DNA of 42,547 nucleotides from Archangiaceae bacterium (lineage in GTDB: Bacteria > Myxococcota > Myxococcia > Myxococcales > Myxococcaceae), in the NCBI GenBank assembly GCA_016879935.1, contig JAACJQ010000108.1, positions 1 through 42,547 of the forward strand, read 5' to 3'. The position numbers and the translations under genes were made by a program. Shown piece after piece: positions 4,527 to 27,328 of the stretch. Each line of letters begins with the position of its first letter. The stretch's first letter is position 1. The notes under the pieces are model-generated. The model ran no database searches, had not been told where the DNA came from, and worked only from the letters and a program-made list of their open reading frames with translations.

Positions 4527-5087
4527 TCAGCAATCGCGGTTGCACACCACGCGGCCGTCAGCGCACGTCTTCGGGGCGGCGCCGTTCGCGCACACCACCT
4601 TGCAGCCCGCGCCCTCACAGCGGCACTTCGAGTTCTCGTTGCACGTCACCGTACAGGCGCCGGTGCACTTCGCGTGACACTCCGCCGAGTTGTTGCAGGT
4701 GACGGTGCTGTCGGCGCCGACGCTGGTCTCGCAGTTCGCGCTGTTGCTGCAGGTCACCTTCGTCTTCGCGCCACTGGTGAAGTTGCACACCGCGCTGTTG
4801 GCGCAGCTGACGACGCTGCTCGCGCCGACGGTGCCCGAGCACGTGGCCGTCGTGTCGCACGTCACCGACGCCGCCTCTCCTGCCGACACGGCGCAGGTGG
4901 CGTTCTGAGAACAGCTCGAGGCGCAGCCCCCGCCCGTGCACGTCTGCGTACACGAACCATTGGAGCAGCCACACGCCGCGCTGGTGCACGCACAGCCCGA
5001 GCCCTGACAGACGGGGGCGACGGCGGTGCCACAGGCGGCGGTGTTCAACACGACCGAGAGGACGAGGAGTGCGGGGGTGGTTCTCAT
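4527..5087 (-). CDS. Cysteine-rich secreted protein, probable lipoprotein
   Basis: A 186-residue protein with an N-terminal signal peptide (MRTTPALLVLSVVLNTAAC). The cysteine at residue 19 could be lipidated, although the -3 residue of the lipobox is Thr instead of Leu. The mature part has about 29 cysteines. It is built from short repeats of the form VTC-x(2,3)-AxC spaced every 10-12 residues, which suggests a stack of disulphide-linked turns or a small beta-helix. No CxxCH motif is present, so it is not a cytochrome. It begins 18 bases after the last cytochrome gene and is probably co-transcribed with it. Such repeats are common in predicted myxobacterial secreted proteins; the function is unknown. 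Confidence 0.7.
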   Translation of the reverse strand: MRTTPALLVLSVVLNTAACGTAVAPVCQGSGCACTSAACGCSNGSCTQTCTGGGCASSCSQNATCAVSAGEAASVTCDTTATCSGTVGASSVVSCANSAVCNFTSGAKTKVTCSNSANCETSVGADSTVTCNNSAECHAKCTGACTVTCNENSKCRCEGAGCKVVCANGAAPKTCADGRVVCNRDC

Positions 5088-5105: not shown

Positions 5106-5870
5106 TCACTTCTGGTGACACGACAGGCACAGCTGGCTCGACGCGGTGGGCACGCGCAAGAAGAAGCGGTTCGGCGTGCCGTGCGGGTTGTGACACGACG
5201 CGCACTCGATGCCGGCGGCGCCCGCAGCGGGAGCTCCACCTCCTCCAGTGCCGAAGATCTTCACGCCCGTCGGCCGCGCGACCCACTCGTTGAGCACCAC
5301 GTCGACGCCCGAGGTGATGCCGTTGTAGGTCGAAGCGACGTTGTTGTACGGGTACGGCACGCCCACCGGGTGGTTGCCGGTCATGTCGGCTCCCGTCGCG
5401 TCGGTGATTCGGTAGGTCGGGTTGTTCAACTGCCCTGCGGCGTTCACGTCGGGGCCCGTCATCGTGATGTTGGGGTTGGCCGTCGCGTCGCTCCAGTACA
5501 ACGAGCCGATGCTGACGGTGCCGTCGTGGCACGACAGACACTTGGCGGTCGAGCCGGTCCACGTGCGCAGGTTGGTGGGGTAGCTGGTGCCGCCCGTGGT
5601 GCGCCCGCCCGCCGCCGCGACGTCACCCCACGTGTAGTTCGACGTCGACATGCGGTGGTTCCACAAGAGCAGCGACGCCTGGCCCTTGTGCGGCGTGTGA
5701 CAGAACACGCACAGCCCGTCTTCAGCCTGGCCTGCTGCGACGCGCACGTTGTTCGTGGCGAGCTGAAAGTTGTGCTTCGTGGTGACCATCGTCTGCGCGA
5801 GCGCTGACGTACTGCACAGCATGACGACGACGAGGGCGTGGATGAGGGCACTGCTGTCTCTTCTGCTCAT
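5106..5870 (-). CDS. Periplasmic tetrahaem cytochrome c (paired CxxCH type)
   Basis: A 254-residue exported cytochrome. The ATG at 5870 is chosen because it overlaps the preceding stop as ATGA and starts a good signal peptide ending in STSALAQ. Four haem motifs are present: CVFCH, CLSCH, CASCH and CLSCH. Surrounding residues follow a fixed pattern: HNF near the mature N-terminus, CVFCHTPH, CLSCHDGT, GNHPVGVPYPY, CxSCHNPHG and a C-terminal CLSCHQK. The same pattern occurs in the tetrahaem gene at 8768-9520 and in the N-terminal third of the dodecahaem gene at 9517-11472, so the three are paralogous modules. It is the last cytochrome of the operon and likely carries electrons in the periplasm or at the outer membrane. 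Confidence 0.9.
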   Translation of the reverse strand: MSRRDSSALIHALVVVMLCSTSALAQTMVTTKHNFQLATNNVRVAAGQAEDGLCVFCHTPHKGQASLLLWNHRMSTSNYTWGDVAAAGGRTTGGTSYPTNLRTWTGSTAKCLSCHDGTVSIGSLYWSDATANPNITMTGPDVNAAGQLNNPTYRITDATGADMTGNHPVGVPYPYNNVASTYNGITSGVDVVLNEWVARPTGVKIFGTGGGGAPAAGAAGIECASCHNPHGTPNRFFLRVPTASSQLCLSCHQK

Positions 5871-6688
5871 GGAACTGCTCCTGGTGTTCCGGCGGGAGGA
5901 GCCGGTGGGTTCAACGACATGATGAAGGCGGTGAGCGACCACCGCTGTTCGACTGACAACGACGCTGCGAAGCCGGGCATCGGTGTTCCATCGAGCCCGG
6001 TGCTGATGGCGCGGAACACGTCTTCAGGGCGACGGCCGCCTTTGAACCAATCGGAGCGGTGCAGGTTCGCGGGCGACACCTTCTTGCCCTGGTGTTTGCC
6101 CGAGACGTAGACGAGGCCCGGCGCGGCTGGCCCGTCGCCTTTGCCCTGCATGCCGTGGCAGACGAAGCACGCGCCGCCCGACATGAAGACGACCTGCCCC
6201 TGCGGCGCCATCGACGCGAGGTCGGCGGGCACGGGCGGCAGGTCGACCTTCGCGCCCGGCTTCTCGGTCTTGAAGCGCGGTGAGAACGTCTTCAGGTACG
6301 CGATGACGCCCCACACCTCACGGTCCGAGAGGAACGTGAAGGCGGGCATGCCGACGCCGGGGCGGAAGCCGCGACGAATCGAGCCGAACAAGTCGGTGTC
6401 CCACGGGAGCGTGCCCAGCGGCGTGGTGCGAACGATGAACTGGCCGGTGGTGAAGTCGCGCGGCGGAATCGCGAGGAACTTTCCTTCGCGGCCCAGGCCA
6501 TCACCCTTCTCGCCGTGACAGCCGAGACACGCGCCCTTGTAGACGCGCTCTCCAACCTCGAGCAGCTCAGGCGTCGTCACCGGCTGCGCGGGAACGTCGG
6601 GCCACAAGGTAACGACGCGCTTCGGAGCAGGCGCTCCGGCAAACGCCGACGACGCAGCGAGCACGACGGCCAGCGCGAGGCGCGTCAT
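5867..6688 (-). CDS. Dihaem cytochrome c
   Basis: A 273-residue exported protein with two class I-type cytochrome c domains. The ATG at 6688 overlaps the previous stop as ATGA and begins a signal peptide (MTRLALAVVLAASSAFA). Domain one has CLGCHGEKGDG and a candidate Met ligand in GVGMPAF; domain two has CFVCHGMQGKGDG with TPMPGF. Both look like single-haem domains with His/Met coordination, unlike the bis-His style of the multihaem neighbours. It could therefore link the multihaem chain to a higher-potential acceptor or donor such as an oxidase or bc-type complex. Its stop overlaps the next start, again as ATGA. Confidence 0.9.
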   Translation of the reverse strand: MTRLALAVVLAASSAFAGAPAPKRVVTLWPDVPAQPVTTPELLEVGERVYKGACLGCHGEKGDGLGREGKFLAIPPRDFTTGQFIVRTTPLGTLPWDTDLFGSIRRGFRPGVGMPAFTFLSDREVWGVIAYLKTFSPRFKTEKPGAKVDLPPVPADLASMAPQGQVVFMSGGACFVCHGMQGKGDGPAAPGLVYVSGKHQGKKVSPANLHRSDWFKGGRRPEDVFRAISTGLDGTPMPGFAASLSVEQRWSLTAFIMSLNPPAPPAGTPGAVP

Positions 6689-7617
6689 TTCTGATGACAG
6701 GTTCGGCATAGAGATTCCCGGTTGGTGACGTCGAACTGCCAGAGGAAGCGCGACTGGGCGGCGTGGGGGTTGTGACAAGACGGGCACGAGAACTCGGTGC
6801 GGTCCTTCAGCGGGTGCGGGCGGCCACGCAGCGGGTGCGAGTCGCCGTAGACGAAGCCGACGACGACGTGCCGCTCACCGCGCTTCTCGGTGTGGCAGTT
6901 GGTGCACAGGTCGTACGCGTGCTTCTTGAGCCAGAAGGGCTGCTCGCTGCCGTGCGGGTCGTGACAGGTGGTGCAACGCCCGGCCGCTGCGGGGCCGTGA
7001 CGAAATGCCTTCGTTGCCATGGCTGCTTTGATGTCGACGTGACAGGAGAAACACGTCTCCTGAATGGGCCACCGCACCGCGTACCGGTTTGGCGTGCTGG
7101 CTTCCTGATGACAGGCCAGACACGCGCCCTGCTGCACCGGCCCGTGCATGACCTTTCGCTGGGTCACCTCGGCGTGGCACGTCGAACAGAACGCGACGGC
7201 GGAGCCACCGTCGGGCCGCTCCATCGAATGGCACTGCGCGCAGACGTTCTCGACCTCGGGCCGATGCGCGGTGCCGGGCCCGAAGCCCTGCGCCTCGACA
7301 CCCGCCGGCAGCGTGCTCGTCGTCACGTAGCGCGAGATGACGGCCTCGACCGTGAGCACCCCGCCATCGTCCGGCGTCGATGCGCTGAGCACGTTGCGCC
7401 CCGGAGCGAGCGTGAACGTGCAGTGCGCCAGCGTCGCGCCACCATCGAGCCGAAACCGTGAGTCGACCGAGCAGCCACCATCGGCGCCCGAGAGCGACAG
7501 CGGCCCATCGGTCTCGACGAAGACCCGCACGTGCTCCCGCGTCGTCTGCGCGACGGGCCCCGGCGCCAGAAAGCGCGGAGCCGCCGACACCACGATGGTG
7601 AGCAGCGCCAGCGTCAT
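6685..7617 (-). CDS. Octahaem cytochrome c with N-terminal beta-rich domain
   Basis: A 310-residue exported protein. The ATG at 7617 overlaps the preceding stop (ATGA) and starts a short signal peptide (MTLALLTIVVSAAP). Residues about 20-120 form a beta-rich, haem-free domain with a Cys pair (GGCSVD, AHCTFT). Eight CxxCH motifs follow: CAQCH, CSTCH, CLACH, CFSCH, CTTCH, CTNCH, CPSCH and CRTCH. Several are of the paired type followed by DPHG or NPHA, with HGP spacers. The density of haems and of extra histidines fits bis-His ligation and a conductive chain. The haem-free N-terminal domain could be a docking module; that is inference. Confidence 0.9.
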   Translation of the reverse strand: MTLALLTIVVSAAPRFLAPGPVAQTTREHVRVFVETDGPLSLSGADGGCSVDSRFRLDGGATLAHCTFTLAPGRNVLSASTPDDGGVLTVEAVISRYVTTSTLPAGVEAQGFGPGTAHRPEVENVCAQCHSMERPDGGSAVAFCSTCHAEVTQRKVMHGPVQQGACLACHQEASTPNRYAVRWPIQETCFSCHVDIKAAMATKAFRHGPAAAGRCTTCHDPHGSEQPFWLKKHAYDLCTNCHTEKRGERHVVVGFVYGDSHPLRGRPHPLKDRTEFSCPSCHNPHAAQSRFLWQFDVTNRESLCRTCHQK

Positions 7618-8771
7618 TTCAGGTTCTCCTGGCGCTGGTTGCGGTCGTAGCGGCGCTCGGCGTGACACCCTGGCCAGCACGAACCGCCCGTCGTCGTCTT
7701 CTTGTAGTTGAGCAGGAACTCCCAGTTCCCGAAGAAGGTGGTGGTGCGAATGTGCTTCGGGTTCTCCGACGCGTGAACGTCGTGACAGAAGCGGCAGGTG
7801 CGGCCCTTGTCGGCCTTGTTCACGTGGCGGAAGTGCAGGTTCTCGTCGCCGTTTCTGAAGCCGGTGATGCCGCCGCGAATCAGGCGCACGCCACCATCAC
7901 CACCGCTCCACGCGAGGTCGGTCGCCGGGTCTGCGTTGCTGACGGGCTTCTCGCCAAGCACCTTCTCCTGCACCAGGCGCGTGTCGTGGCAGCGGAAGCA
8001 GAGGCCGTAGTCTTCGACAGCCGCCGAGAACGGCGTGTACGGCGCCGCGGGGTACGAGCCCTTGAGCATGCGGGACTCCGAGGTGCCGTGCGGTTCGTGG
8101 CAGTCGGGGCAGCGGCCTTCGCGCACCGGGCCGTGCCGCATCGTCCCCGCGTCGTGCTGGTCGAGCCACGCCTTCAGGTTCATCAACTCCTTGTCGGGCG
8201 CCTGCTGCGGCTTGTCGTGACAGGTGACGCACACCTTCTCGGGCGGCCAGTCGTGCAGGCGCTTCTCGTGGTCAGACTGGTGCGCGTCGTGACACGAGAC
8301 ACAGACCTTCGGGTTCTGCTTCGGGTCGAGCGCGCCATGCTTCGTCGCCGACGTCTCGTTCTGCGTGCGCTTGCTCGGGTGACAGCGGGTGCACGTCTCG
8401 AAGACCGGCTGACGCAGGCGCGCGTGGTGGTCGCTCGCGTGCGGGTCGTGACACTCGAGACACAGGCCTTCGCTCACCGGCGGGTGCAGCACCTTCAGCG
8501 AGTCACGTGTCGAGTGGCACTGCGCGCAGAGGAACTTGCCGTCGGCGGCGAGGTCGAACGTGTGCTTCGTGTCGGAGGTCGAGACGTGACAGCCGAAGCA
8601 GAGACCGTTCTTCACCGGCGGGTGAATGACCTGCTTCTTCGCCCACGCGTCGGCGTGACAGGCGCGGCAGTCGTCACCCGGCCCGGCGGGCACGCCCTTC
8701 GATGGACCCGCGGCCATCGCGGCGTTCGCGACGAGCCACCCCACCACGCACCAGCGCGCGCAGGTCGTCAT
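7614..8771 (-). CDS. Multihaem cytochrome c, ten CxxCH sites plus one CxxxCH
   Basis: A 385-residue exported cytochrome. The ATG at 8771 overlaps the preceding stop (ATGA); the upstream in-frame extension belongs to the previous gene's shadow. The signal peptide ends near ANAAMAAG. Ten CxxCH motifs are visible: CRACH, CFGCH, CAQCH, CLECH, CTRCH, CVSCH, CVTCH, CPDCH, CFRCH and CRFCH. The C-terminal motif is CWPGCH, a three-residue-spaced haem site. The first half has regularly repeated HPPV-x-GLC and CHDPHxSDH units. The last third has a non-haem insertion (GGDGGVRLIRGGITGFRNGDE) before the final two sites. Eleven haems are predicted if the CxxxCH site is used. Confidence 0.9.
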   Translation of the reverse strand: MTTCARWCVVGWLVANAAMAAGPSKGVPAGPGDDCRACHADAWAKKQVIHPPVKNGLCFGCHVSTSDTKHTFDLAADGKFLCAQCHSTRDSLKVLHPPVSEGLCLECHDPHASDHHARLRQPVFETCTRCHPSKRTQNETSATKHGALDPKQNPKVCVSCHDAHQSDHEKRLHDWPPEKVCVTCHDKPQQAPDKELMNLKAWLDQHDAGTMRHGPVREGRCPDCHEPHGTSESRMLKGSYPAAPYTPFSAAVEDYGLCFRCHDTRLVQEKVLGEKPVSNADPATDLAWSGGDGGVRLIRGGITGFRNGDENLHFRHVNKADKGRTCRFCHDVHASENPKHIRTTTFFGNWEFLLNYKKTTTGGSCWPGCHAERRYDRNQRQENLK

Positions 8772-9520
8772 TTGCGGTGACAGCCCAGACACAGTTCGCT
8801 CCGTTCCTTCGGCAGGCGCAGGAAAAAGGTGTTCGTGGTGCCGTGCGGGTCGTGGCACGAGATGCACTCGACGCCCGAGGTGCCGCGCAGCACGTCGAAG
8901 CCCGAGGTATCGCTCACCAGCTTGAGGCCCTTCACGCGGGGGTCCGTGACCCACTCCAGCGTGTCGATGGGCACCGCGCGCGGGCCGAAGCCCTTGTACT
9001 CCGAGCCCGTGCCGTCGAGCGGGTACGGCACTGAGACCGGGTGGTTGCCCATGACCTCGTCGGTCCACGACTGCGGCGAAAAGAGCGCGGGCCCGTTGCG
9101 GCCGCTGCGCTGCGAGTCAGTCGACGCGATGGCGTCGGTCTTCAGCGTTCCCGACGACGCGCGCAGCACGATGTTGATGCTCGAGACGGTGCCGTCGTGA
9201 CACGACAGGCAGCGCATCGTGCTGCCAGCCCAACGCATCGCGAGCGGAGGCCCCGACGGGTCAGCGCGTACGTCGAGCGCGGCCGAGCGGCCGGCGTTCT
9301 TCGAGTCCCAGCCCGGCCCACGCTTCGGCCACTCGAGCCGGTTGGGTACGTGACACATCATGCACAGGTCAGTGCCCTCGCTCGGCGGGCGACCCATGGG
9401 CCCGAAGAAGTTGTGCGGCGACGCGTCGATGCGAGACGGCGCGGCGCTGCGCTTCGCCATGGCGAGCGTCGGTTGTTGCGAGAGCGCGAGCGCGCTCACC
9501 AGGGCGAGGAGCGCGTTCAT
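8768..9520 (-). CDS. Tetrahaem cytochrome c, paralogue of the last cytochrome in the operon
   Basis: A 250-residue protein starting at ATG 9520, which overlaps the preceding stop as ATGA. The signal peptide is MNALLALVSALALSQQP; the region after it is basic. Haem motifs are CMMCH, CLSCH, CISCH and CLGCH. The framework HNFF, CLSCHDGTVSS, GNHPVSVPYPLDG, CISCHDPHG and CLGCHRK is the same as in the cytochrome at 5106-5870, but the loops between haems 2 and 3 differ strongly. Two such paralogues in one operon suggest parallel or alternative partners for the larger cytochromes. The start codon context (GAGCGCGTTCAT on the plus strand) is nearly the same as that of the dodecahaem gene. Confidence 0.9.
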   Translation of the reverse strand: MNALLALVSALALSQQPTLAMAKRSAAPSRIDASPHNFFGPMGRPPSEGTDLCMMCHVPNRLEWPKRGPGWDSKNAGRSAALDVRADPSGPPLAMRWAGSTMRCLSCHDGTVSSINIVLRASSGTLKTDAIASTDSQRSGRNGPALFSPQSWTDEVMGNHPVSVPYPLDGTGSEYKGFGPRAVPIDTLEWVTDPRVKGLKLVSDTSGFDVLRGTSGVECISCHDPHGTTNTFFLRLPKERSELCLGCHRK

Positions 9521-11472
9521 GGGTTGGGCGGCCGATAGACGGACTTATTGCCGTCCATCGCCTCGTCTTTGTCGTGGCAGCCGGCGAAGCAGTAGTAGTC
9601 GCCAGCCGGTGTGCGGCCCCACCGCGGGCGCACCGGCGAGTCGCCGTACCAGGGGTCATTGCCTTTGCTCGCAGGGAAGCGGCGCACCGTCGGCGCGAAG
9701 TTCACGAGGTGCGTCGGCGTGCCTGCGGGAAGGTTGCGGTAGTCGGTGTTCGTCGCCGCGACGTTGCTGTGAACGTTGTTGTGGCACTCGTGGCAGCCCG
9801 CGTTCGTGCGGTCGACGAGGTGCACCTGGTGCAGGTTGCCGCGACCCGAGCCGACGCCGCCCGGTTGGAAGAAGTTGCTGCGATTGCCGCGCAGGCGCGC
9901 TTCGTCGTGACAGAGGAAACAGAGCGCGAAGTTGTTCTGGTTGTAGCCACCGAAGGGCGGCGCGTTCGCTCCGGTGGCAGTGCTGTAGTTCGCGCGCAAC
10001 ATGCGGGTGTTGGCCGAGCCATGCGGCCCCTTGGGGCTCGCGCTGCTGTTGCGCGCGCTGCCCGGCACGTTCGCCGTCGCTTCGCTGTTGTGACAGTCGG
10101 TGCACAAGACCGTGGAGAAGCGCGTGAGGCGATTGCCCTGCCAGTCGAGCCCACGCAGCTGGCCGTCTGGCGTGTCGAGCACGTTGTTCAGGTACGTCGA
10201 CGTGTTGCGACCCGGACCGGCGACGGGATGAAACGCGTCGTTCGTCGTCTGGAACTCGAGGCGCTTGTTGCTGCCCGACGGAGGCCGCGTCGCCGCCGGT
10301 GGAATCATCGTGGCGAACGAGTCGCCGTGGCAGCGGAAGCAAACCTCGTACTGCTGCACGTCGGTGCTCGCGTTGTCGACGACGACCGCACCCGACAGCG
10401 AGATGCCCTTCATGCCTTCGTGCACGTTGCCGGGCAGCGCCTGCACCTGATGCGGGTTGTGACAGTCGGCGCACTCGACGTGCTTCGAGGTGTTCACCAC
10501 CGTCTCGGGCTCGGGCACCTTCGCGGTGAACACGGGCTGGTGCTCGTCGGTCTTCAGCGCGAACGGGTGACTCACGGCCTTCGTCGACTCGGTCTGAATG
10601 TCAGGCGCCGCGCGACCACGGGAGGCATCGACGCCGGTGCCGCCCGAGCGGTGACACGAGAAGCAGACGTTCTCTTCGCTCCACGGCAGCGGAGCGCCCG
10701 ACAGATTCTGCGTCGTGAGCAGCTTCGTCGGGCCCTGACCGTTGTGCGGCTTGTGACAGGCGAGACAGCCGAGGTCGCCGACGGTCTGCGCGCCACTCGC
10801 CGGGTACGCCGCGAGCGACGCCTCGTGCCGGCTGCCCACCCAGCCCTGCTTCGCGTGACACGTGATGCACACCGCGCCGCGCAGGTTCGACTTCACGAGG
10901 AACTTCGTCGTGGCGAGGTGCGGGTCGTGACACGAGGTGCACTGCACCTGGTCCTTCACGGCCGTGGTGCCGTGCTTCAGCTCGACGGCATCTCCATTCG
11001 GAGGCGCGACGATTTCGGGGTCGCTCGCAGGAATCGGCAGTGAGATGGGGTGGTCGTTGCGCAGGTCGGTGCCGAGGTTGCGCGGACCAACGGGCATCGT
11101 GGTGACGCCGCCCTGCATCGCCACCGTCGCGGGCCGCGTCGCGTCGAGGTTGAGCAACGAGCCGATGGCGAGCGCGCCGTCGTGACACGAGAGGCAGAGG
11201 CGACTCGCGCCCGAGGGACGGTTCGGCGGCGCCTCGAGCGTGCTGGAGCCGTACAACGTGTAGATGGTTCCGCCCGCCTGGTAGCCGAGGTCGCGGTTCC
11301 AGATGGCGCGCGACTGCGAGGCCGCGTGGGGGATGTGACAGAACACGCAGACCTGCGTCTCGCTCTGCGCGCGCACGGTGTTCGCCACCATCGGCGCCGA
11401 GAGGTTGTGACGCGTGTTGCGCACGTCGGCCGTCTGCGAAACCACCACGAGCGTGAAGAGGAGCGCGTTCAT
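9517..11472 (-). CDS. Dodecahaem cytochrome c (eleven CxxCH plus one CxxxCH)
   Basis: A 651-residue exported protein, the largest cytochrome of the locus. The start at 11472 overlaps the NHL lipoprotein stop as ATGA; the signal sequence is MNALLFTLVVVSQTAD. Haem sites in order are CVFCH, CLSCH, CTSCH, CITCH, CLACH, CFSCH, CADCH, CFRCH, CTDCH, CFLCH, CHECH and the final CFAGCH. The first four sites reproduce the tetrahaem module found in two neighbours (HNL, CVFCHIPH, CLSCHDGA, NDHPISLPIP, CTSCHDPH). The remainder carries long haem-poor loops rich in Asn and Ser. Size and position directly after the beta-barrel and lipoprotein genes make it the best candidate for the conduit or extracellular cytochrome. 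Confidence 0.9.
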   Translation of the reverse strand: MNALLFTLVVVSQTADVRNTRHNLSAPMVANTVRAQSETQVCVFCHIPHAASQSRAIWNRDLGYQAGGTIYTLYGSSTLEAPPNRPSGASRLCLSCHDGALAIGSLLNLDATRPATVAMQGGVTTMPVGPRNLGTDLRNDHPISLPIPASDPEIVAPPNGDAVELKHGTTAVKDQVQCTSCHDPHLATTKFLVKSNLRGAVCITCHAKQGWVGSRHEASLAAYPASGAQTVGDLGCLACHKPHNGQGPTKLLTTQNLSGAPLPWSEENVCFSCHRSGGTGVDASRGRAAPDIQTESTKAVSHPFALKTDEHQPVFTAKVPEPETVVNTSKHVECADCHNPHQVQALPGNVHEGMKGISLSGAVVVDNASTDVQQYEVCFRCHGDSFATMIPPAATRPPSGSNKRLEFQTTNDAFHPVAGPGRNTSTYLNNVLDTPDGQLRGLDWQGNRLTRFSTVLCTDCHNSEATANVPGSARNSSASPKGPHGSANTRMLRANYSTATGANAPPFGGYNQNNFALCFLCHDEARLRGNRSNFFQPGGVGSGRGNLHQVHLVDRTNAGCHECHNNVHSNVAATNTDYRNLPAGTPTHLVNFAPTVRRFPASKGNDPWYGDSPVRPRWGRTPAGDYYCFAGCHDKDEAMDGNKSVYRPPNP

Positions 11473-12497
11473 CGCGACCCCTCCGCGACGACCGCTGGAG
11501 CAGGCTCGATGACGAACACCTGCACGCGCGCGTTCCACGTATCGGCGACGTAGAGGCGTCCTTCCGAATCGGTCGTGAGGCCAGACGGCAGCCAGAACTT
11601 CCCGTCGGTCACGCCGCTGCCACCGAAGACCCCGACGAGTTCGCCTTTCGCGTCGAAGCCCTGCACCACATCGGCTGAACCTTCGACGACCCAAAGCGTG
11701 CCCTTCGAATCGACGGCGACGCCCTTCGCGCGCGGCAGGTCTCCTGGTGAGTCACCGAGCCCACCGAGCGATTCGACGAAGGCGAGCCGCTCGTCGAAGT
11801 GCTGCACGCGGAAGTTCATGCTGTCGGCGACGAAGAGATGGCCGCGCTCGTCGACGGCGAGGTGCGTGGGGAAGTTGAACGCGCCCTGCTGCTCTCCGCG
11901 TTCACCGAGCGTCGTGGGCTCACCGCCCGACAACGAGATGACGTGCACTCGATGTTGCGCGGCGTCGACGACGAAGAGGCGCTCTCGCACCGTGTCGAGC
12001 GCGAGCCCCGTCGGCCGCGTGAACGTCGGCAGCTTCCAGCGCAGCGGCTGCGGCTCTCCCGTCGAAGGGTCGAAGCCATGCAGCGTGCCGTCAGCGACCA
12101 CCAGCAACCCGCTCACGAAGACGGCTGCGAGCGGAGCCGTGAGCCCTTCATTGACCTCGAGGTGACGGTTCTCCTTCGGCAGATAGAGCCGCACGAGCCG
12201 CGTACCTGGGTCCGTCACGGCCACGCGACCATCGCTCGAGACCGCGACGCCGAACGGCCGATACAGCGCGTGCGTCGCTTCGGTGCCGGTGAGCCAGGCC
12301 CAGAGACGCGAGAACACGTTCTGCTCGATGCCGAGGTTCGCTGGCAGCTCGAGCGAACCGACGAAGCGCACCTGTTGGTTGCCCGCCTTCAGCCACGTCG
12401 GGTCCTCGGCCTTGCGCTCTCCGATGCGACGCACGGGCACGCTCGCGCAGCTCGAGGCGAGCGTGACGGCGACGGCGATGACAGCGAGGCGGTGCAT
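11469..12497 (-). CDS. NHL-repeat beta-propeller lipoprotein (second copy)
   Basis: A 342-residue protein starting at ATG 12497 with signal peptide MHRLAVIAVAVTLASSC; the Cys at 17 is the likely lipidation site. The rest is a six-bladed NHL-type propeller: blades end in motifs such as GVAVSSDGRVAVTDPG, GLALDTVRERLFVVD, HLAVDERGHLFVADSMNFRVQ and GLTTDSEGRLYVADTWNARVQ. It has the same plan as the lipoprotein at 14229-15263, with the beta-barrel gene between them, so the pair arose by duplication. NHL propellers mediate protein contacts; here they probably assemble around the barrel and cytochromes at the outer membrane. It starts 2 bases after the barrel gene's stop. Confidence 0.85.
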   Translation of the reverse strand: MHRLAVIAVAVTLASSCASVPVRRIGERKAEDPTWLKAGNQQVRFVGSLELPANLGIEQNVFSRLWAWLTGTEATHALYRPFGVAVSSDGRVAVTDPGTRLVRLYLPKENRHLEVNEGLTAPLAAVFVSGLLVVADGTLHGFDPSTGEPQPLRWKLPTFTRPTGLALDTVRERLFVVDAAQHRVHVISLSGGEPTTLGERGEQQGAFNFPTHLAVDERGHLFVADSMNFRVQHFDERLAFVESLGGLGDSPGDLPRAKGVAVDSKGTLWVVEGSADVVQGFDAKGELVGVFGGSGVTDGKFWLPSGLTTDSEGRLYVADTWNARVQVFVIEPAPAVVAEGSR

Positions 12498-12499
12498 GG

Positions 12500-14224
12500 T
12501 CAGAAGTCGAAGGGGCGAGCGAGCGAGAGGCGAACGAGGTGCTGCGTTGTGACGAAGCCCTGCGTGTCGTTGCGCACGACGTTCCACGAGAGCGAGGAGG
12601 TGAAGCGGCCGAAGCGCGCAGTGACGCCTGCGTTGCCGGTGATGGTGGTGAGCGGCAGGTTGCTGTCGAGCACCGTCCACCCGGCGAGGCCGCCGGCATG
12701 CGCGTCGAGCCACGGCAGCACGGGCAGCATCACGTTCGCCGAGAGCTGCGTCACTTCACGCGCGGTGAGCGGCGGGCCGAGGCTGAACGGCGACGCGGGA
12801 ATCACGGAGGAGCCGCGCAGGTGGCGCAGGTCGATGTTTCCGGTGCCGCGCCCGAGCGTCGTCTGCGCGCCGCCGCCGATGGTGAAGGCCTGCTCGCGCA
12901 GCGTCGCGATGCCGCCGCTCAACAGGTCGATGTAGTCGCGGTAGCCGTCGTCGTAGCCGATGAGCGTGTACACCTCGGAGCGCGCTCCGATGCGCACGCG
13001 GGCCGTGCCCTTCGCGTGGTGCTCGGTGCGATTGCCGCCGCGACCCATGGGCGCCCGCACGAGCGCGATGCGGTAGTCGGCCTGCGCGTCGAAGCGCTCG
13101 AAGCCCACCGTCGAGATGGAGGCGCCGCTGTCGACGCTCGCCATCCACCCGTCGGTGAGGCCCACGCAGTTCGCGCAGTGCTGCGCCATCGTTCCCGCGA
13201 AGACGCCCGGCCGCACGGGGCCGATGACGCGGCCATACCCGACGCGCGCCGCACCTCCGGCCGTCGAGCCCACCTTCGTCGTGGCCGTCGTCGTCGCGAA
13301 GCCCACGTCGCCCGTCGCCGAAGCCGCGAACTCGTGCTGCTCGAAGGGCTGCCACGAGGCGCCGACGGTGGTTCCGCCCTGGGTGCCCGAGGCGTTGTCG
13401 AAGCGCACGTCACTCAGGCGACCGGTGGCGTCGGTGAAGAAGCGCGGCGTCCACCGCTGCTGGTGGGCGAACCGCACGTTGCGCTCGACCATCGACGACG
13501 CGGCGCCCGGCAACGGAACGACGAGGTGGCTGCGGTCGACGCTCTCGGCCATCAACGTGGTGGCGTGCTTCGGCGAAGTCCACGAGGTGAGCAGGTTCAC
13601 GCCCAGCCACTCGCCGACGACGGTGCGGTTCTCCTGGGTGAGACGAACGGTGGCCGTCACCTGATGCGTGTCGAGCTGCTTGTAGAGCGACGCGGTGAGC
13701 GAGCGACGCACGTCGGAGAGCGGCTTGACGGTGCCGATGCCCGTGAAGTTCAGCTGCTCGGCGTCGACGCGCAGCCCCGGCGCCCAGGCGAAGGGCTCGA
13801 GGTGAACGTTGGCTCCGAAGGCGAGCGCCTCACGGCCGCCGAGTGTCGCGATGGACTGCGGGCCGCCGTCGGTGAGCGTTCCACGCACGTAGAGTCGCAG
13901 CGGCAACGCGCGCCGCGGGACGAGCCCCACCGCGAGGTCGAGCGTCGCCGAGCGGCCCGAGATGAGCGCGCCCGCGTCACCGAACGCGTTCATGTTCATG
14001 CCCTCGAACCCCGCGCTGAGCAGCACCGCGTTGGGGCCGAACGGCGTGCCGGCGTAGTGCAGCCCGAGGTTCTCCGAGATGAGCAGCGAGCGAACCGACT
14101 GCGTGGTGCCGTTCGGCGTCGTGGCGTCGAGCGTCTGCGCCTGGCCCTCGGCAGCGACGTTGCCGAACACGCCGGCCTGCGCCACCGAAGCCATCAGCAC
14201 GCTGCTCGCCACCACGCGCCACAC
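12500..14224 (-). CDS. Outer-membrane beta-barrel protein, putative porin of the cytochrome conduit
   Basis: A 574-residue protein with a signal peptide (cleavage after ASVAQA) and alternating polar and hydrophobic strands over its full length. It ends in Phe (RPFDF), the usual last residue of outer-membrane barrels recognised by the Bam machinery. The many short amphipathic strands (for example SLTASLYKQLD, QVTATVRLTQE, HLVRLSLARPF) would suit a large barrel of 20 or more strands. There is no CxxCH; one CxxC (HCANC) lies in a loop. In known porin-cytochrome systems (MtrB, OmbB, ExtB types) such a barrel sheathes a multihaem cytochrome. The start is uncertain: GTG at 14224 follows GAGG closely, and GTGs at 14215 and 14212 are alternatives. 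Specific family membership was not recognised. Confidence 0.75.
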   Translation of the reverse strand: MWRVVASSVLMASVAQAGVFGNVAAEGQAQTLDATTPNGTTQSVRSLLISENLGLHYAGTPFGPNAVLLSAGFEGMNMNAFGDAGALISGRSATLDLAVGLVPRRALPLRLYVRGTLTDGGPQSIATLGGREALAFGANVHLEPFAWAPGLRVDAEQLNFTGIGTVKPLSDVRRSLTASLYKQLDTHQVTATVRLTQENRTVVGEWLGVNLLTSWTSPKHATTLMAESVDRSHLVVPLPGAASSMVERNVRFAHQQRWTPRFFTDATGRLSDVRFDNASGTQGGTTVGASWQPFEQHEFAASATGDVGFATTTATTKVGSTAGGAARVGYGRVIGPVRPGVFAGTMAQHCANCVGLTDGWMASVDSGASISTVGFERFDAQADYRIALVRAPMGRGGNRTEHHAKGTARVRIGARSEVYTLIGYDDGYRDYIDLLSGGIATLREQAFTIGGGAQTTLGRGTGNIDLRHLRGSSVIPASPFSLGPPLTAREVTQLSANVMLPVLPWLDAHAGGLAGWTVLDSNLPLTTITGNAGVTARFGRFTSSLSWNVVRNDTQGFVTTQHLVRLSLARPFDF

Positions 14225-14228
14225 GACC

Positions 14229-15263
14229 TCATGCTCCCGACGGCGGCGGCGAGGTGCTGTCGCTCGCCGTGGTGTTCACCAGCTCGTAGACCTCGACGCG
14301 GAAGTTGAGGCCGTTGGTGACGTAGATGCGGTTCTTCGAGTCGATGGCGATGCCGGCCGGGTTCGAGAGGAAGCCCGCCGAGTCACCGCGCCCACCGAAG
14401 AAGAGGAGCAGCTTGCCGTCGCGGTTGAAGATTTGAACGACCGAGAAGAACGAGTCGACGACGTAGACGTTGCCGAACGAGTCGGTGGCGACGCCCTTGG
14501 GCTTGTCGAACTGGCCGAACTGGTCGCCGCGCTCACCGAACTGCCGCACGAAGGCGCCGTCGGCTGCGAGCTCCTGCACGCGCGCGTTCATGGTGTCGGC
14601 GACGAGCAGGTTCCCCGACGAGGTGACGTTCACGAACGTGGGAAAGAAGAGCTCGCCCGGCCCATCGCCCTTCTTGCCGAGCGCCGCCTGGTGCTCGCCG
14701 GTCGACAGCTTGTACGCGTGCACCGCGTGGGTGCCGCCAGTCGGCGTCGAGGTGTCGGTGACGTAGAGCAGGTCGTGGCTCGCATCGACGCCGATGCCGA
14801 CGGGGCGCTCACAGTCCGACAGGTCGATGCGGCGCAGCGGCACGCCGAGGCGCGAGAAGTTGATGGCGGCTTTCAGCTGCGGCACCACCACCCACGGGCG
14901 GTCGGCTTCGAGCGCGATGCCGACGGGCACTCCACCGAGCGCCTCCTTCGCGATGGTCTGCACCGAGCCCTTCTCGACGTCGAAGAGGAACACCTGCGCG
15001 AGCGCCTGGTCGGTCACCGCGACCAGGTCGCCCGCCGGCGTCACCGCCACACCCACCGGGTGAAACAGCTGCGTCGGCGCTTCGGCGCCAGAGAGCTTGC
15101 GGAAGAACTTCGCTGCGCCCGACTCGAAATCGGCGGGGCCGCTGAGCGACTTCACGAAGCGAATGCGCTCCGTCGCCGGAGGGCCGGGCCACGCGATGTT
15201 CGCGCGCGCCGTCACGCAGCCCGTGGCGAGCGACGCGATGATGATCAGCACCCAACGGCTCAT
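14229..15263 (-). CDS. NHL-repeat beta-propeller lipoprotein (first copy), first gene of the cytochrome operon
   Basis: A 344-residue lipoprotein starting at ATG 15263 with signal peptide MSRWVLIIIASLATGC; Cys16 is the likely lipidated residue. Six NHL blades follow, with motifs such as GVAVTPAGDLVAVTD, GIGVDASHDLLYVTD, NLLVADTMNARVQEL, GVATDSFGNVYVVDSF and GIAIDSKNRIYVTNGLNFRVE. The front of the mature protein (IRFVKSLSGPADF) matches the other propeller lipoprotein (VRFVGSLELPANL), and both have a FxRLxxWL/FFRKLSG element before the first blade. It is probably anchored at the outer membrane next to the beta-barrel. The region upstream (15264-15539) contains the operon's control sites. Confidence 0.85.
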   Translation of the reverse strand: MSRWVLIIIASLATGCVTARANIAWPGPPATERIRFVKSLSGPADFESGAAKFFRKLSGAEAPTQLFHPVGVAVTPAGDLVAVTDQALAQVFLFDVEKGSVQTIAKEALGGVPVGIALEADRPWVVVPQLKAAINFSRLGVPLRRIDLSDCERPVGIGVDASHDLLYVTDTSTPTGGTHAVHAYKLSTGEHQAALGKKGDGPGELFFPTFVNVTSSGNLLVADTMNARVQELAADGAFVRQFGERGDQFGQFDKPKGVATDSFGNVYVVDSFFSVVQIFNRDGKLLLFFGGRGDSAGFLSNPAGIAIDSKNRIYVTNGLNFRVEVYELVNTTASDSTSPPPSGA

Positions 15264-15310
15264 GACGTGGCTCAGTTCAAGGCGTGTGCCCCATGAGCGC
15301 GTGAGCGCGA

Positions 15311-15326
15311 CGCAGAAGGTGCAGCG
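15311..15326. promoter_or_regulatory. Direct repeat copy 1, candidate activator site
   Basis: CGCAGAAGGTGCAGCG, identical over 16 bases to 15373-15388. The two copies lie 62 bases apart (about six helix turns) in the divergent region between the cytochrome operon and the sigma-54 activator gene. Each copy is itself an imperfect dyad (CGCAG and CAGCG). Confidence 0.5.
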
Positions 15327-15372: not shown

Positions 15373-15388
15373 CGCAGAAGGTGCAGCG
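15373..15388. promoter_or_regulatory. Direct repeat copy 2, candidate activator site
   Basis: Second exact copy of CGCAGAAGGTGCAGCG. Spacing on the same helix face suits cooperative binding by an oligomeric activator such as the adjacent FHA/sigma-54 protein. That link is inferred. Confidence 0.5.
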
Positions 15389-15406: not shown

Positions 15407-15422
15407 GTCAGGTCGACCTGAC
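15407..15422. promoter_or_regulatory. Perfect 16-bp palindrome
   Basis: GTCAGGTCGACCTGAC reads the same on both strands. It lies about 118 bases before the activator's start codon and 144 bases before the cytochrome operon's first start codon. A perfect 16-base palindrome in a non-coding divergent region is a strong candidate operator. Confidence 0.5.
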
Positions 15423-15539: not shown

Positions 15540-16898
<1,359 letters not shown>

Positions 16899-18620: not shown

Positions 18621-20750
18621 TCAGCTCGTCGCCTGTGGCTCGCGTGCCGAAGACCGTCTGCGCATCACGAGCGCCCCGAGCGCGAGCAAGAGCGGCAGTG
18701 GCGAACTCGCCGTGCAACCGCATCCCGTCGGCGGTTCCATCGAATCTGCGGATCCACCAGCGACTGCGGTTCCACCAGCGACTGCGGTTCCACCAGCGAC
18801 TGCGGATCCACCTGCGACTGCGGATCCACCTGCGACTGCGGATCCACCTGCGACTGCGGATCCACCTGCGACTGCGGATCCACCGGCGACTGCGGAGCCA
18901 CCTGCGACTGCGGAGCCACCTGCGACTGCGGATCCACCTGCGGCTGCAGATCCACCTGCGGCTGCGGATCCACCAGCGACTGCGGTTCCACCAGCGACTG
19001 CGGAGCCACCTGCGGCTGCGGATCCACCTGCGAATCCACCTGCGAATCCACCTGCGGCTCCGCCGCCCGCACTTCCTCCACCTGCTCCACCATCAGGCGT
19101 CGACACGCACTGCCCCGACGCATTGCACGACCCGACCGCGCACGTGCCACACGACGTCCCACACTGATCAACTCCGCACTGCTTCCCACTGCAGAAACTC
19201 ACCGGAGCCTGATTCGTTGGCGTGCCATTCAACAACGAACGCGTCAGCCCGAGCCCAAGCGACGCTCCGGTGCAGAACTCGCCCATCGTCGTGAACCCCT
19301 CGAGGAAGCTCGAGTACGGCGCCGTCGCCTGCGCCGCGGTGTACCAACTGAACGAGCCGAGCGGATTGAGCGAGTAGAGGTAGCACGGGCCCATGTCGAG
19401 CCCGCCGCCGTACAGCGCGAGCGTGTCGTAGTTGGCGTCGCGCAGATGTTCTTCGGGCGACTTCGTGTTGCCGGGAGAGGCGAGAAGGCACGCACCAAGC
19501 GACGACGTGGGAAAGCCCGCAGCCTGCTGCCGCCCGCGGTCCGTCATCTGCACGAGGTCGTAGTACGCGTCCTGGTTGTCTTCGGCTGGCGCGCTCGGGT
19601 TCATGTACGTGCCCATGTCCATCCACGAGCCCCAGCCGTCGAACAGGTTGCAATAGATGGAGTCGGCCGCGCGCTCGCCCACGGTCGTGCCATTCGCGAT
19701 GCGTGCAATCTCGCGAAACGGCCGACGCGCGTAGAAGGTTCGCGCGTTCTGCGTCATGCCGAGCACGATGAGCCCGCCGCCGCGCAGGCGCCAGTAGACG
19801 CCTCCGAGCCAGAACGCGACGAACTCACGCTCTTCATCGGTGAGCGACGGATACGGCAACACCGGCCGCGTTCGCGATCGCGCGCCAAGACACTGCTGCT
19901 GCACGAGCGCTCTTGCCGTGCCTGCTGCGATCGTCTGAGTGACGTGCGCATCGATGGCGTCAAGCTCGGTCGACAACTGCGTCACCTCCAGGCGCAGCGC
20001 GGGCCCGCGGGTCGCGTCGAAGCACGAGGCATCGCTCGTCAGCCGCGAGATGACCGACTGAAACGCCGTGCGCGCCGTCGTCACCCGTGCGCTCTGCGAA
20101 GGCCGCACCTTCCACAACACGCGCCGCATCGTCGGCACCCAATCGCCGGGCAGCATTCCTTCGGGCACCGGCACACGAGCGAGCCCCGCGCCTGCGAGCC
20201 CAAGCTGCTGCTCGAGCGTGTTCGTGTGCGCGTCGACGTACGAGTTCAACTGCGACTGGCTCAACCCCGATGGAATCGTGCTGGCTGACACGAACCGCTC
20301 GGGCTCTTCCAGCTCGAGACACGTCGCGAGGTTCGTCGCGTTCAGGCTCTGCCGAATCGTGGCCTCGTACTGCTGACACGTCGTCGACGCTCCCGCCGCG
20401 AGGAACGAGGTCGCCGGCACCACGAACGTCGCGCTCGTCGAACAGAACACCGGAGCTGGCCACGTCATCGGCGCCGTGCCCGCATCGAGCGTGCGCAGAA
20501 ACTGAGCCTTCATCTCGGGCGCGAACCACAACGTCACTGTCGGCGTCGTGGCACCCTGCGGGCCAGCCTCGAGCGACTCGAACGTCGACGGCAGTCGCAC
20601 CCACGACGGCATCGCTCCGTTCAATGCCGTCACCTTCTGCGCCGTGAGCGTCGGGTTCTGCGGCAGCCCGGCATCGAACTCGAACGGCAGCCGTCGCTGC
20701 GCCCACGCGACGCACGGGAGGACCACGAGAAGGCTGAGCAGGTTCCGCAT
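18621..20750 (-). CDS. Secreted protein with repetitive linker and MYXO-CTERM-like C-terminal anchor
   Basis: A 709-residue exported protein; ATG at 20750 starts the signal peptide MRNLLSLLVVLPCVAWAQ. Residues 20-540 are a unique region with scattered Cys pairs, not recognised. A Cys-rich knot follows (CSGKQCGVDQCGTSCGTC..CNASGQC), then a low-complexity linker of about 16 repeats of Gly-Gly-Ser-Ala-Val-Ala. The end is a Cys-Gly-Cys motif, a hydrophobic stretch (PLPLLLALGALVM) and an Arg cluster. That is the layout of MYXO-CTERM sorting signals, which anchor proteins at the myxobacterial cell surface. It is divergent from the DUF1592-like gene and shares an 85-base intergenic region with it. 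Confidence 0.8.
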   Translation of the reverse strand: MRNLLSLLVVLPCVAWAQRRLPFEFDAGLPQNPTLTAQKVTALNGAMPSWVRLPSTFESLEAGPQGATTPTVTLWFAPEMKAQFLRTLDAGTAPMTWPAPVFCSTSATFVVPATSFLAAGASTTCQQYEATIRQSLNATNLATCLELEEPERFVSASTIPSGLSQSQLNSYVDAHTNTLEQQLGLAGAGLARVPVPEGMLPGDWVPTMRRVLWKVRPSQSARVTTARTAFQSVISRLTSDASCFDATRGPALRLEVTQLSTELDAIDAHVTQTIAAGTARALVQQQCLGARSRTRPVLPYPSLTDEEREFVAFWLGGVYWRLRGGGLIVLGMTQNARTFYARRPFREIARIANGTTVGERAADSIYCNLFDGWGSWMDMGTYMNPSAPAEDNQDAYYDLVQMTDRGRQQAAGFPTSSLGACLLASPGNTKSPEEHLRDANYDTLALYGGGLDMGPCYLYSLNPLGSFSWYTAAQATAPYSSFLEGFTTMGEFCTGASLGLGLTRSLLNGTPTNQAPVSFCSGKQCGVDQCGTSCGTCAVGSCNASGQCVSTPDGGAGGGSAGGGAAGGFAGGFAGGSAAAGGSAVAGGTAVAGGSAAAGGSAAAGGSAVAGGSAVAGGSAVAGGSAVAGGSAVAGGSAVAGGSAVAGGSAVAGGTAVAGGTAVAGGSADSMEPPTGCGCTASSPLPLLLALGALVMRRRSSAREPQATS
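18748..19060 (-). repeat. 18-bp tandem repeat encoding Gly-Gly-Ser-Ala-Val-Ala
   Basis: About sixteen units of an 18-base sequence (plus-strand form GATCCACCTGCGACTGCG) within the MYXO-CTERM protein's linker. Several neighbouring units are identical, so the array is recent or still changing in length. Units at the 19040 end shorten to GGFAGGFA. Confidence 0.85.
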
Positions 20751-20835: not shown

Positions 20836-22677
20836 ATGACTCGTGGTCTGATGCGGCTCCGCATGTTCTTCCCCCGCCTGTGTCTCGCGCTCGTTGCGCT
20901 CGGCCCGCTGTTGGCCCACGCGCAGCAGCAGTGCAGCGCTCCACCCGGTCCACGCCCTGCGCCGACCGACATCATCTCTGACACGCGCGCGCTGCGTCGC
21001 ATCGCGCTCACGCTCGAAGGCACCACGCCCGACATTGCAGAGCTCGAAGCGCTGGCAGCAGAGGCCTCGGCCGAAGCGCGCCAATCGATGTTGCAGCAGG
21101 CCATCGACCGGCGGCTTCAGTCACCAGCCTTCTACGACCAGATGGTCCGCTTCGGTCACGAGTGGATCAGCATCGGCACGTACACGAAGGGCGCGCAGGG
21201 CGACGCGTACCAGGGCGACATGGCGGGCCACCTGTTCCGCTGCAACACGGGCACGGCGCACGCGAACGCGTACTTCATCAACGACGACCCTGACGCGAAC
21301 ATGCAGAACGTCTGCAAGGACCTCGACAAGAACGGCGCCGCGAAGACGCAGGCGACGTTGCAGGTCGAGCCGTGGTGGGCACCCGGCACGCAAGTCACCG
21401 TCGTCGGCGTCGCCGCGAGCTCGACCGCCACCACCGTTCCCGGCCCGAACAACACCACCGTCGACTGCGGGCGCGCGAACGGCGGCTACTACGACCCGTC
21501 GGTGCCCGATGGCTGCGGGTGCGGACCGAACCTCGTGTGGTGCGCTCCGCTCAGCGGGCTCGGCGCAGGGAGCGTCTACGACCTCTACGGCTCGCAACGT
21601 CGTCATCCGTTCGAAGAGCCCGCGCGGCTGCTCGGTCACCTCGCGTGGCACGACCGCGACCTCTCCGACCTCGTGCTGGGCAACTACTCCGTCGGCACGA
21701 ACTGGCTGCGTCATCTCTATGTGCGGCACGGTCGACAGCACGGCAGCACCGCGACCGACGCGAACACCACGTGGTGGAAGCCGGCCGCCGACACGAGCGC
21801 GCGCGACCCGCGCCACCCCGACGCGAACGACCCGCAGGCCTGGCGTGAGTTCGTCGTCGAAGACCTGAACCCCTTCTTCCTCTCGCTCACGAACAAGCAG
21901 CCCGGCGGTGGTTTCGGCCGCACGTACCACTACGACCCGCGCACCACGACGACGCCACCCGAAGGGCTGCCCTCGGCCGGCGTGCTGACGATGATGGGCC
22001 CGAACTCGTCGTGGCCGCGTGAGCGGGTTCGCGCCGCGCGGTTCCTCGAGGTGTTCGCGTGCTCGGCGTTCTCTCCGCCTGCAGCAGGCTCCACCTTTCC
22101 GCCGTACCAGAACGACCCCGCGACGGGCGGCACCTGTCTGCACTGCCACACCACGCTCGACCCCGCGGCCATCTTCTTCAAGCGCTGGGACTTCGACCCG
22201 CAGTCCTCGTACTACGTGCCGTGGCCGTTCCTCGGAGGCATCGGCCGCTACCGCATCACCGCCGCGTGGATCAGCGGGCGCTACCCGTTCTCCGCCGCCG
22301 ACGGCAGCCCGGGCTTCCGCTGGAAGAACGCGTTCGTGCCCAACACGGTGATGACGCCGGTAACGCCCGAGCAGATTGCGGCGAACCCCGAAGCGGTGCT
22401 GCTCGACACGATGCCGCAGACGTACTCGCTCCTCGGAGAATCGGGCGACGGCACCATGGGGCCGCTCGGCTTCGGCAAGATTCTCGTCAGCTCTGGCGCC
22501 TTCGACCGCTGCGCCGTCAGAAAGCTGTACGCGCGTTTCGTGGGCCGTGAGCTGCACCCCGCCGACGAGCGCCCGTACATCGACGCGCTGGTGAAGCAGT
22601 TCGTGAACGACGGTCGCAAGGTGAGGCCGTTCATTCGCTACCTGATGACGCAGACCGAGTTCCGGAGGGGCCTCTAA
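20836..22677 (+). CDS. Secreted DUF1592/DUF1588/DUF1585-like cytochrome-containing protein
   Basis: A 613-residue exported protein. The signal peptide ends at LLAHAQ; ATGs at 20836, 20851 and 20863 are all possible starts and no clear ribosome binding site decides. The N-terminal region (ALRRIALTLEGTTPDIAELEAL) resembles the opening of DUF1592. The middle holds CLHCHTTLDPAAIFFKRWDF, matching the DUF1588 pattern of a CxxCH followed by Asp-Pro and Phe-Asp. The C-terminus (LYARFVGRELHPADERPYIDAL..FIRYLMTQTEFR) resembles DUF1585. These modules occur in Planctomycetes and myxobacteria beside DUF1501 or DUF1552 proteins; their reaction is not known. It is the first gene of a three-gene cassette, with a one-base gap to the next. 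Confidence 0.7.
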   Translation: MTRGLMRLRMFFPRLCLALVALGPLLAHAQQQCSAPPGPRPAPTDIISDTRALRRIALTLEGTTPDIAELEALAAEASAEARQSMLQQAIDRRLQSPAFYDQMVRFGHEWISIGTYTKGAQGDAYQGDMAGHLFRCNTGTAHANAYFINDDPDANMQNVCKDLDKNGAAKTQATLQVEPWWAPGTQVTVVGVAASSTATTVPGPNNTTVDCGRANGGYYDPSVPDGCGCGPNLVWCAPLSGLGAGSVYDLYGSQRRHPFEEPARLLGHLAWHDRDLSDLVLGNYSVGTNWLRHLYVRHGRQHGSTATDANTTWWKPAADTSARDPRHPDANDPQAWREFVVEDLNPFFLSLTNKQPGGGFGRTYHYDPRTTTTPPEGLPSAGVLTMMGPNSSWPRERVRAARFLEVFACSAFSPPAAGSTFPPYQNDPATGGTCLHCHTTLDPAAIFFKRWDFDPQSSYYVPWPFLGGIGRYRITAAWISGRYPFSAADGSPGFRWKNAFVPNTVMTPVTPEQIAANPEAVLLDTMPQTYSLLGESGDGTMGPLGFGKILVSSGAFDRCAVRKLYARFVGRELHPADERPYIDALVKQFVNDGRKVRPFIRYLMTQTEFRRGL

Positions 22678-23709
22678 ATGAACGCGCGCCTCCTCTGCTT
22701 CCTCTCGCTCGCGGCGTGCACCGGCAACATCGGCTCGTCGACGAACCCAAACCCGTTCTCCTCCGATGGTGGGCTGCTGGCCGATGGCGGCTGTGCTCCC
22801 GTGAGCCGCAACGACGAGATGCGCCTCGCGCTCGCCGGAGCCTGTGCGGGCTGTCACGTCGCCGGCTCCAAGCCGTACTGGGCGTCGCTGACTGCGTTCG
22901 AGGGCCTCGTCTACGACCCGAAGTACGTCGTGCGCGGCGACCCCGACAACAGCCTCTTGCTCAAGCTCTTCAAGGCCAACGCGCCGGGCTCGTTCACGCA
23001 GATGCCGCCGGGCGAGAAGTACGAAGCGATGCTGGCCCGCGGCGGAGCGACCGTGACCATCGCCGACCTCGAGCAGTGGATTCGCGATTTGCCACCGCAA
23101 GGCAGCGTCGTCGCCGAGCCGATTCCCGAGCGCTTCACCGTGAGACGCCTCACCGCCGAAGAGATGGTCGTCTCGGCGATGGCGCAGCTCGGGCTCACGC
23201 TCGAAGACTTCATCGACACCTCGAACATGAACTGGCGCCAGCAGGAGTACACCGTCAACGGCGGCAAGTTCTTCATCTGGCCGAAGGACTGGGCGCCGGG
23301 CATCTCGCGACAGTACGTCTCCGACTCGCGCACCATCGAACGCTACGAAGCACTCGGCGGCATGGCGGCGCTCGACAACCGCGGCAAGGACTTCGCCCTC
23401 GGGCCCGCGGCGGTGCAGACGCTCGTGCAGATGTCTCAGGCCTGGTGCAAACGCGCCATCGAGAAGCCGGGCAACACCGCCGTGCTCCGTTACGTCACGC
23501 TCGCCGACAAGAGCGCGACGAAGGCGGCCGACATCAAGAAGAACATCGCCGCGCTGCACCTGCGCATGCTGGCCGAGCCGGCGACCGACGACACCGTCGA
23601 GGCGCTCTACACGAAGGTCTACCTGCCCCTCGAAGCGACGAACACGAAGGCCGCGTGGACGGCCGTGTGCGCGAGCTTCATGCGTCACCCTCAGTGGCTG
23701 AGCTTCTGA
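22678..23709 (+). CDS. Planctomycete-type cytochrome c lipoprotein
   Basis: A 343-residue lipoprotein: signal MNARLLCFLSLAAC with a good lipobox (Leu-Ala-Ala-Cys). A single cytochrome c domain at residues about 40-140 has CAGCH and ends in DLEQWIRDLPPQG, typical of Planctomycete cytochrome C domains (GDPDNSLLLKLFK, QMPPG with a candidate Met ligand). The remaining 200 residues (FTVRRLTAEEMVVSAMAQLG and on) resemble the DUF1587/1592 region that follows such cytochromes in larger proteins. The start follows the previous stop directly (TAA, ATG), so the two are co-translated. It is probably the redox partner of its neighbours. Confidence 0.75.
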   Translation: MNARLLCFLSLAACTGNIGSSTNPNPFSSDGGLLADGGCAPVSRNDEMRLALAGACAGCHVAGSKPYWASLTAFEGLVYDPKYVVRGDPDNSLLLKLFKANAPGSFTQMPPGEKYEAMLARGGATVTIADLEQWIRDLPPQGSVVAEPIPERFTVRRLTAEEMVVSAMAQLGLTLEDFIDTSNMNWRQQEYTVNGGKFFIWPKDWAPGISRQYVSDSRTIERYEALGGMAALDNRGKDFALGPAAVQTLVQMSQAWCKRAIEKPGNTAVLRYVTLADKSATKAADIKKNIAALHLRMLAEPATDDTVEALYTKVYLPLEATNTKAAWTAVCASFMRHPQWLSF

Positions 23710-23718
23710 AGAGGCCCC

Positions 23719-27320: not shown

Positions 27321-27328
27321 GGCCGATC

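Follow-up and report, generated by a model that had tools for sequence, protein, structure and literature searches.

We analysed a 42,547-nt stretch of DNA from Archangiaceae bacterium (assembly GCA_016879935.1, contig JAACJQ010000108.1; "the window" refers to this whole stretch) and found on its minus strand a nine-gene operon encoding an outer-membrane beta-barrel, two beta-propeller (NHL) lipoproteins and six cytochromes. Judging from sequence and predictions, we hold with moderate confidence that the operon specifies a conduit for electrons in the outer membrane, coupled with a cytochrome filament of the OmcE type. Its probable task is electron transfer between cell and surroundings, and it is a variant of known conduit and nanowire clusters, with Uet, Oet and Osc as published relatives. 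An initial annotation of the locus had proposed an electron conduit of a myxobacterium. The conduit is well supported by a predicted plugless 28-strand barrel and a profile match of the cytochrome C11 to MtrA, the assignment to myxobacteria by Myxococcales/Myxococcaceae records among the relatives. What had been overlooked is the OmcE nanowire module in three of the six cytochromes, which makes the locus look less like a porin-cytochrome complex alone and more like a conduit combined with a filament.

OmcE-like cytochromes and the outer-membrane barrel

By sequence comparison three of the six cytochromes are homologues of OmcE or carry an OmcE module. OmcE of Geobacter is a tetrahaem cytochrome that forms an extracellular filament with histidine (His) ligation between subunits. 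Residues 4–208 of the dodecahaem protein C12 matched Geobacter OmcE (7tfs) with 1.5e-27. In C4b residues 12–254 align to 7tfs with all eight ligand His matched, those of four CxxCH motifs and four distal ones. The four distal His are likewise kept in the OmcE domain of C12. In C4a three of them are kept, while the second His of CxxCHxxH is replaced by Asn or Ser (CHVPN, CHVAN, CHVPS) in 7/7 orthologues. Taking four CxxCH motifs plus four distal His as the mark of the OmcE type, C4b belongs to it and C4a does not. All three proteins also matched 9yuq. Across 83–84 homologues of C12 the His residues of all 12 haem motifs and the four distal ones of the OmcE domain are 100% conserved. A second C12-like protein of the same genome (G000:C305:46753-48060) matches the octahaem part only, residues 188–623.

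The operon runs from 15263 to 5106, so that positions 5106–15263 are its exact extent, in the order NHL1, barrel, NHL2, C12, C4a, C11, C8, C2, C4b. Most junctions are 4-nt ATGA overlaps, and nearly all others are gaps of a few bases. We counted 41 haem motifs, namely 12 in C12, 4 in C4a, 11 in C11, 8 in C8, 2 in C2 and 4 in C4b. Two of them, one C-terminal in C12 and one C-terminal in C11, are of the variant form CxxxCH, all others are CxxCH. All nine genes and the haem counts thus agree with the initial annotation. The two NHL lipoproteins, described there as paralogous, have lipobox-like N-termini and each matches the orthologues of the other. When searching the 9.5-Mb genome with the CxxCH DNA pattern TGCNNNNNNTGYCAC, 27 of the 218 reverse-strand matches lay within ~6.2 kb of the operon. 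The genome-wide count did not exceed that of a reversed-pattern control; because of this clustering the haem motifs of the operon are nevertheless far above chance. Pfam and NCBIfam detected doubled-CxxCH, class I cytochrome c and NHL domains in the operon proteins, and genes for cytochrome c assembly were found in the genome.

For the barrel we obtained an AlphaFold2 model from six orthologues, which has 28 strands and no plug (predicted local distance difference test, pLDDT, 80.3; predicted template modelling score, pTM, 0.65). Neither Pfam nor NCBIfam gave a match to the protein. Structure searches with Foldseek and VIA-align returned many outer-membrane barrels with tied scores (LptD, TonB-dependent receptors, OprD-type porins, MtrB). 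The predicted fold therefore confirms a barrel, whereas the tied matches do not give its family. An unrelated transporter, which the initial annotation had named as speaking against a conduit, was not recognised. The predicted size of the barrel would fit the enclosure of a cytochrome. In phmmer searches homologues were restricted to the closest relatives; a link to barrel-sized open reading frames (ORFs) in other phyla came from profile-profile comparison alone, with prob 97.7 and E 1.8e-12 for one pair.

C11 matched by profile the MtrA chain 6r2q_A of the solved Mtr complex with 1.6e-10. In the sequence file this PDB chain carries the wrong molecule name "Cystathionine beta-synthase". C8 consists of a haem-free N-terminal region of ~125 amino acids (aa) followed by eight haems, and its 8 CxxCH motifs are kept in seven orthologues. 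Matches of the DmsE/NrfB type were weak for both C11 and C8.

Six relatives from three families have these nine genes as well, with identical haem counts, including both CxxxCH motifs; in one of these the locus is spread over two contigs, with C11 as two ORFs. Of 147 genomes of the class, 7 encode the barrel. Identity across the relatives is 70–86% for C12 and falls to 33% for the barrel. In the three most distant relatives C4b is located between NHL1 and the barrel instead of at the 3' end, and on the basis of this gene order we regard C4b as an original member of the operon. The C12 proteins of the nine-gene myxobacterial operons form a single tree group (seven rows; Shimodaira-Hasegawa-like approximate likelihood ratio test, SH-aLRT, 99). 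Same-genus records that carry names are Myxococcales/Myxococcaceae metagenome-assembled genomes (MAGs). One genome with the nine-gene operon, L022 (Myxococcaceae MAG-73), also encodes an extra C12 homologue of 41% identity with no NHL gene upstream.

Table 1. Genes of the operon and elements of its control region (positions in the window)
Feature	Position	Strand	Remarks
NHL1, beta-propeller lipoprotein	14229..15263	-	344 aa; MSRWVLIIIASLATGC; Pfam NHL 3.6e-18; lipobox-like N-terminus; orthologues in six relatives
Outer-membrane beta-barrel	12500..14224	-	574 aa, GTG start; plugless, 28 predicted strands
NHL2, second beta-propeller lipoprotein	11469..12497	-	342 aa; directly upstream of C12; Pfam NHL 1.3e-28
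C12, dodecahaem cytochrome	9517..11472	-	651 aa; N-terminal ~208 aa OmcE-like tetrahaem domain plus octahaem part
C4a, OmcE-like tetrahaem cytochrome	8768..9520	-	one of four distal His missing; OmcE 7tfs 1.3e-10
C11, undecahaem cytochrome	7614..8771	-	10 CxxCH + 1 CxxxCH; remote MtrA/DmsE similarity
C8, octahaem cytochrome	6685..7617	-	Pfam Paired_CXXCH 1.8e-31
C2, dihaem class I cytochrome c	5867..6688	-	Cytochrome_CBB3 + Cytochrom_C; Pfam 7.8e-21, 2.4e-17
C4b, OmcE-like tetrahaem, candidate filament subunit	5106..5870	-	OmcE 7tfs 1.1e-18, full length
GGGCACACGCCTTGAA, sigma54-like	15276..15291	-	without -12 GC; near-identical in two same-genus relatives
TGCACCTTCTGCG, direct copies	15373..15385 and 15311..15323	-	2/4 genome copies; putative function
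GTCAGGTCGACCTGAC, perfect 16-bp palindrome, candidate operator	15407..15422	.	-159 to -144 from NHL1 ATG
Divergent FHA-sigma54 enhancer-binding activator	15540..16898	+	Pfam FHA 5.3e-11, Sigma54_activat 5.7e-65

Recurrence across phyla and relation to known systems

We surveyed homologues of C12 and obtained at least 588 pattern matches, of which at least 560 were confirmed and the best 80 of these examined. Phyla with homologues include Planctomycetota, Verrucomicrobiota, Bacteroidota, Nitrospirota, Calditrichota and Pseudomonadota. Gene neighbourhoods were counted at 40 loci with enough flanking DNA, two same-genus records being excluded. An NHL gene is located directly upstream of C12 at 37 of them, an OmcE-like tetrahaem gene nearby at 39 and a barrel-sized haem-free ORF nearby at 38; at 36 loci two NHL genes, the tetrahaem gene and the barrel-sized ORF all accompany C12. 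Geomonas paludis carries two separate NHL-barrel-NHL-C12-tetrahaem cassettes (L128, L041), one of which is followed by a 1490-aa protein with 20 haems. The core of OmcE-like tetrahaem, NHL, barrel, NHL and 12-haem protein therefore recurs across phyla. The initial annotation had not recognised this exact gene set; its core is nevertheless widespread and resembles the published Uet cluster. In three gammaproteobacterial loci (L038, L060, L074) the cassettes continue downstream with genes for 8-haem, 7+1-haem, 3-haem, NHL and 18–24-haem proteins.

Uet of Tenderia and Gallionellaceae comprises a tetrahaem cytochrome, a barrel, two NHL proteins and an 11–12-haem cytochrome (PMC10734462), a combination that the operon shares. 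Uet also encodes three trihaem cytochromes (UetDEG) and the peptidyl-prolyl isomerase UetB (PMC10734462). Among the haem counts of the operon there is no trihaem gene, and a peptidyl-prolyl isomerase domain was found neither in the operon nor in the flanking genes scanned; C11, C8, C2 and a second tetrahaem are additional. When compared by reported gene content the operon would thus work like Uet, yet it is not classed as Uet because UetDEG and UetB are absent. A homologue of C12 (4.3e-64) is encoded at the betaproteobacterial locus L096, whose content is Uet-like, and this points to a relationship between C12 and UetJ.

The operon shares with the OmcE nanowire three homologous units, namely C4b, C4a and the N-terminal domain of C12, four haem motifs and four distal His being kept in C4b and C12. 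It differs in that the OmcE-like units are encoded in one operon alongside a barrel, two NHL lipoproteins and an OmcE-octahaem fusion, and in the lost ligand of C4a. Osc and OetABI resemble it in encoding a nanowire cytochrome beside export proteins or a porin-cytochrome conduit. Filament candidates of Osc/Oet are OmcS-like hexahaem proteins and OmcX; by the published descriptions the operon differs from both, as its haem counts include no OmcS-like hexahaem cytochrome and no peptidyl-prolyl isomerase is encoded. MtrCAB/MtoAB likewise combine multihaem cytochromes, one of them remotely similar to C11, with a large outer-membrane barrel that has no plug. Membership in the Mtr group fails because C11 and C8 stay below the cut-off of 192.2 bits for TIGR03508 (MtrA/DmsE; 68.0 bits for C8). 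Furthermore the barrel lacks a Pfam match and the NHL and OmcE-like parts are extra.

Proposed mechanism and alternative explanations

In the conduit-filament arrangement that we favour, C2 and C8 would act as periplasmic carriers, passing electrons to or from a multihaem protein in the barrel. This protein, inserted in the 28 strands, could be C11 or C12, and C12 would bridge the barrel to the outside. C4b, with all OmcE ligands kept, may form a wire by polymerising on C12 or close to it, and C4a, with one axial ligand lost, is probably a partner that does not polymerise. The two NHL lipoproteins may assist assembly of the complex or hold it together. Only tentatively do we propose C12 as both membrane anchor and nucleator, the OmcE domain being the fixed first subunit for C4b and the octahaem part joining the barrel.

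Several observations weigh against a conduit coupled to a filament. The AlphaFold2 model of C12, made from seven sequences, reached a pLDDT of 26 and is unusable for judging the fold or a fit into the barrel. MtrB matched the barrel model with Z 14.5, tied with other barrel families. C11 scored 60.8 bits against TIGR03508 (1.4e-16), below the cut-off, and CxxCH-rich proteins can match MtrA through the motif. The physiological role of Geobacter cytochrome filaments is disputed. OmcE homology is moreover no proof of polymerisation, and no wires are known for close homologues of OmcS. The last two points, together with the differing character of the tetrahaem paralogues, one of which lost a ligand, favour a porin-cytochrome conduit with no filament at all, in which the OmcE-like tetrahaems would be soluble or surface-bound carriers and C12 the terminal surface cytochrome. 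Given that C4b aligns to OmcE over its full length with all eight ligand His retained and that the cassette includes an OmcE-like tetrahaem at nearly every locus (39/40), we consider this rather unlikely.

The operon might also be mainly a machine for nanowire assembly and export. The osc operon reportedly serves folding, secretion and morphology of OmcS, and in different phyla an OmcE-like tetrahaem is accompanied by C12, the barrel and the NHL genes, which would fit such a role: the barrel would serve as a pore for export, C12 as a template and the NHL proteins as chaperones or tethers, with electrons entering the wire elsewhere. The 25 haems in C11, C8, C2 and C4a exceed the needs of secretion, however, and an isomerase is missing, making this explanation unlikely. 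A periplasmic or detoxification redox system with no part in extracellular electron exchange appears highly improbable. Doubled-CxxCH cytochromes are often periplasmic, and the weak DmsE/NrfB likeness of C11 and C8 points the same way, but in the Pfam scan none of the operon proteins was a catalytic oxidoreductase subunit, and the outer-membrane barrel, the two lipoproteins and the OmcE homology all argue against it. Nor did the cytochromes group with periplasmic-only systems; such a grouping is what the initial annotation had held to be incompatible with a conduit.

Control region, neighbouring genes and biological context

Control of the operon probably lies with the divergent FHA-sigma54 activator. 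The probable start of its gene is the ATG at 15540, the longest ORF beginning at 15381, and an orthologue adjoins the operon in both same-genus relatives. The palindrome GTCAGGTCGACCTGAC is located between the activator gene and the operon and may be bound by the activator. It is the sole perfect copy in the 9.5-Mb genome (a control pattern gave 0). Genome G136 contains two perfect copies, both at the operon; G133 has two near copies at the operon and perfect copies elsewhere too. Closer to the start codon than the palindrome lie a conserved GGGCACACG(C/G)CTTGAA and the two copies of TGCACCTTCTGCG. Since a sigma54 scan of the whole window gave matches at chance level only, the argument for a promoter at this site is its conservation in the two same-genus relatives. 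A search for sigma70 promoters gave none, and the number of terminator-like sites was close to that expected by chance.

Just 3' of the operon, 4527–5087 (minus strand) encodes a small protein resembling a lipoprotein; it is rich in Cys, contains repeated Cys motifs and has no Pfam match. On the other side 15-mers fitting TGGCTCCGCAGTCGC/TGGAACCGCAGTCGC are repeated at 18760–19008, several of them spaced 18 nt. A DUF1549/DUF1585 protein and then a DUF1501 protein are encoded at 20836–25302 (plus strand), a pairing familiar from planctomycetes. The plus-strand gene at 27281–30136 encodes a protein of 951 aa consisting mostly of RCC1 repeats.

The attachment of cytochrome nanowires to the cell and the site at which electrons enter the wires have been described as unresolved (PMC12307469). 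The conserved cassette of OmcE-like subunit, barrel, two propeller lipoproteins and OmcE-octahaem fusion names a testable candidate for the anchor. If C12 is indeed an anchor, the barrel, the two NHL lipoproteins, C12 and the tetrahaem would be a general wire-and-socket module across many phyla. Myxobacteria are predators and usually regarded as aerobic heterotrophs. The operon suggests that extracellular electron exchange takes place in them as well, seemingly under FHA-sigma54 control.

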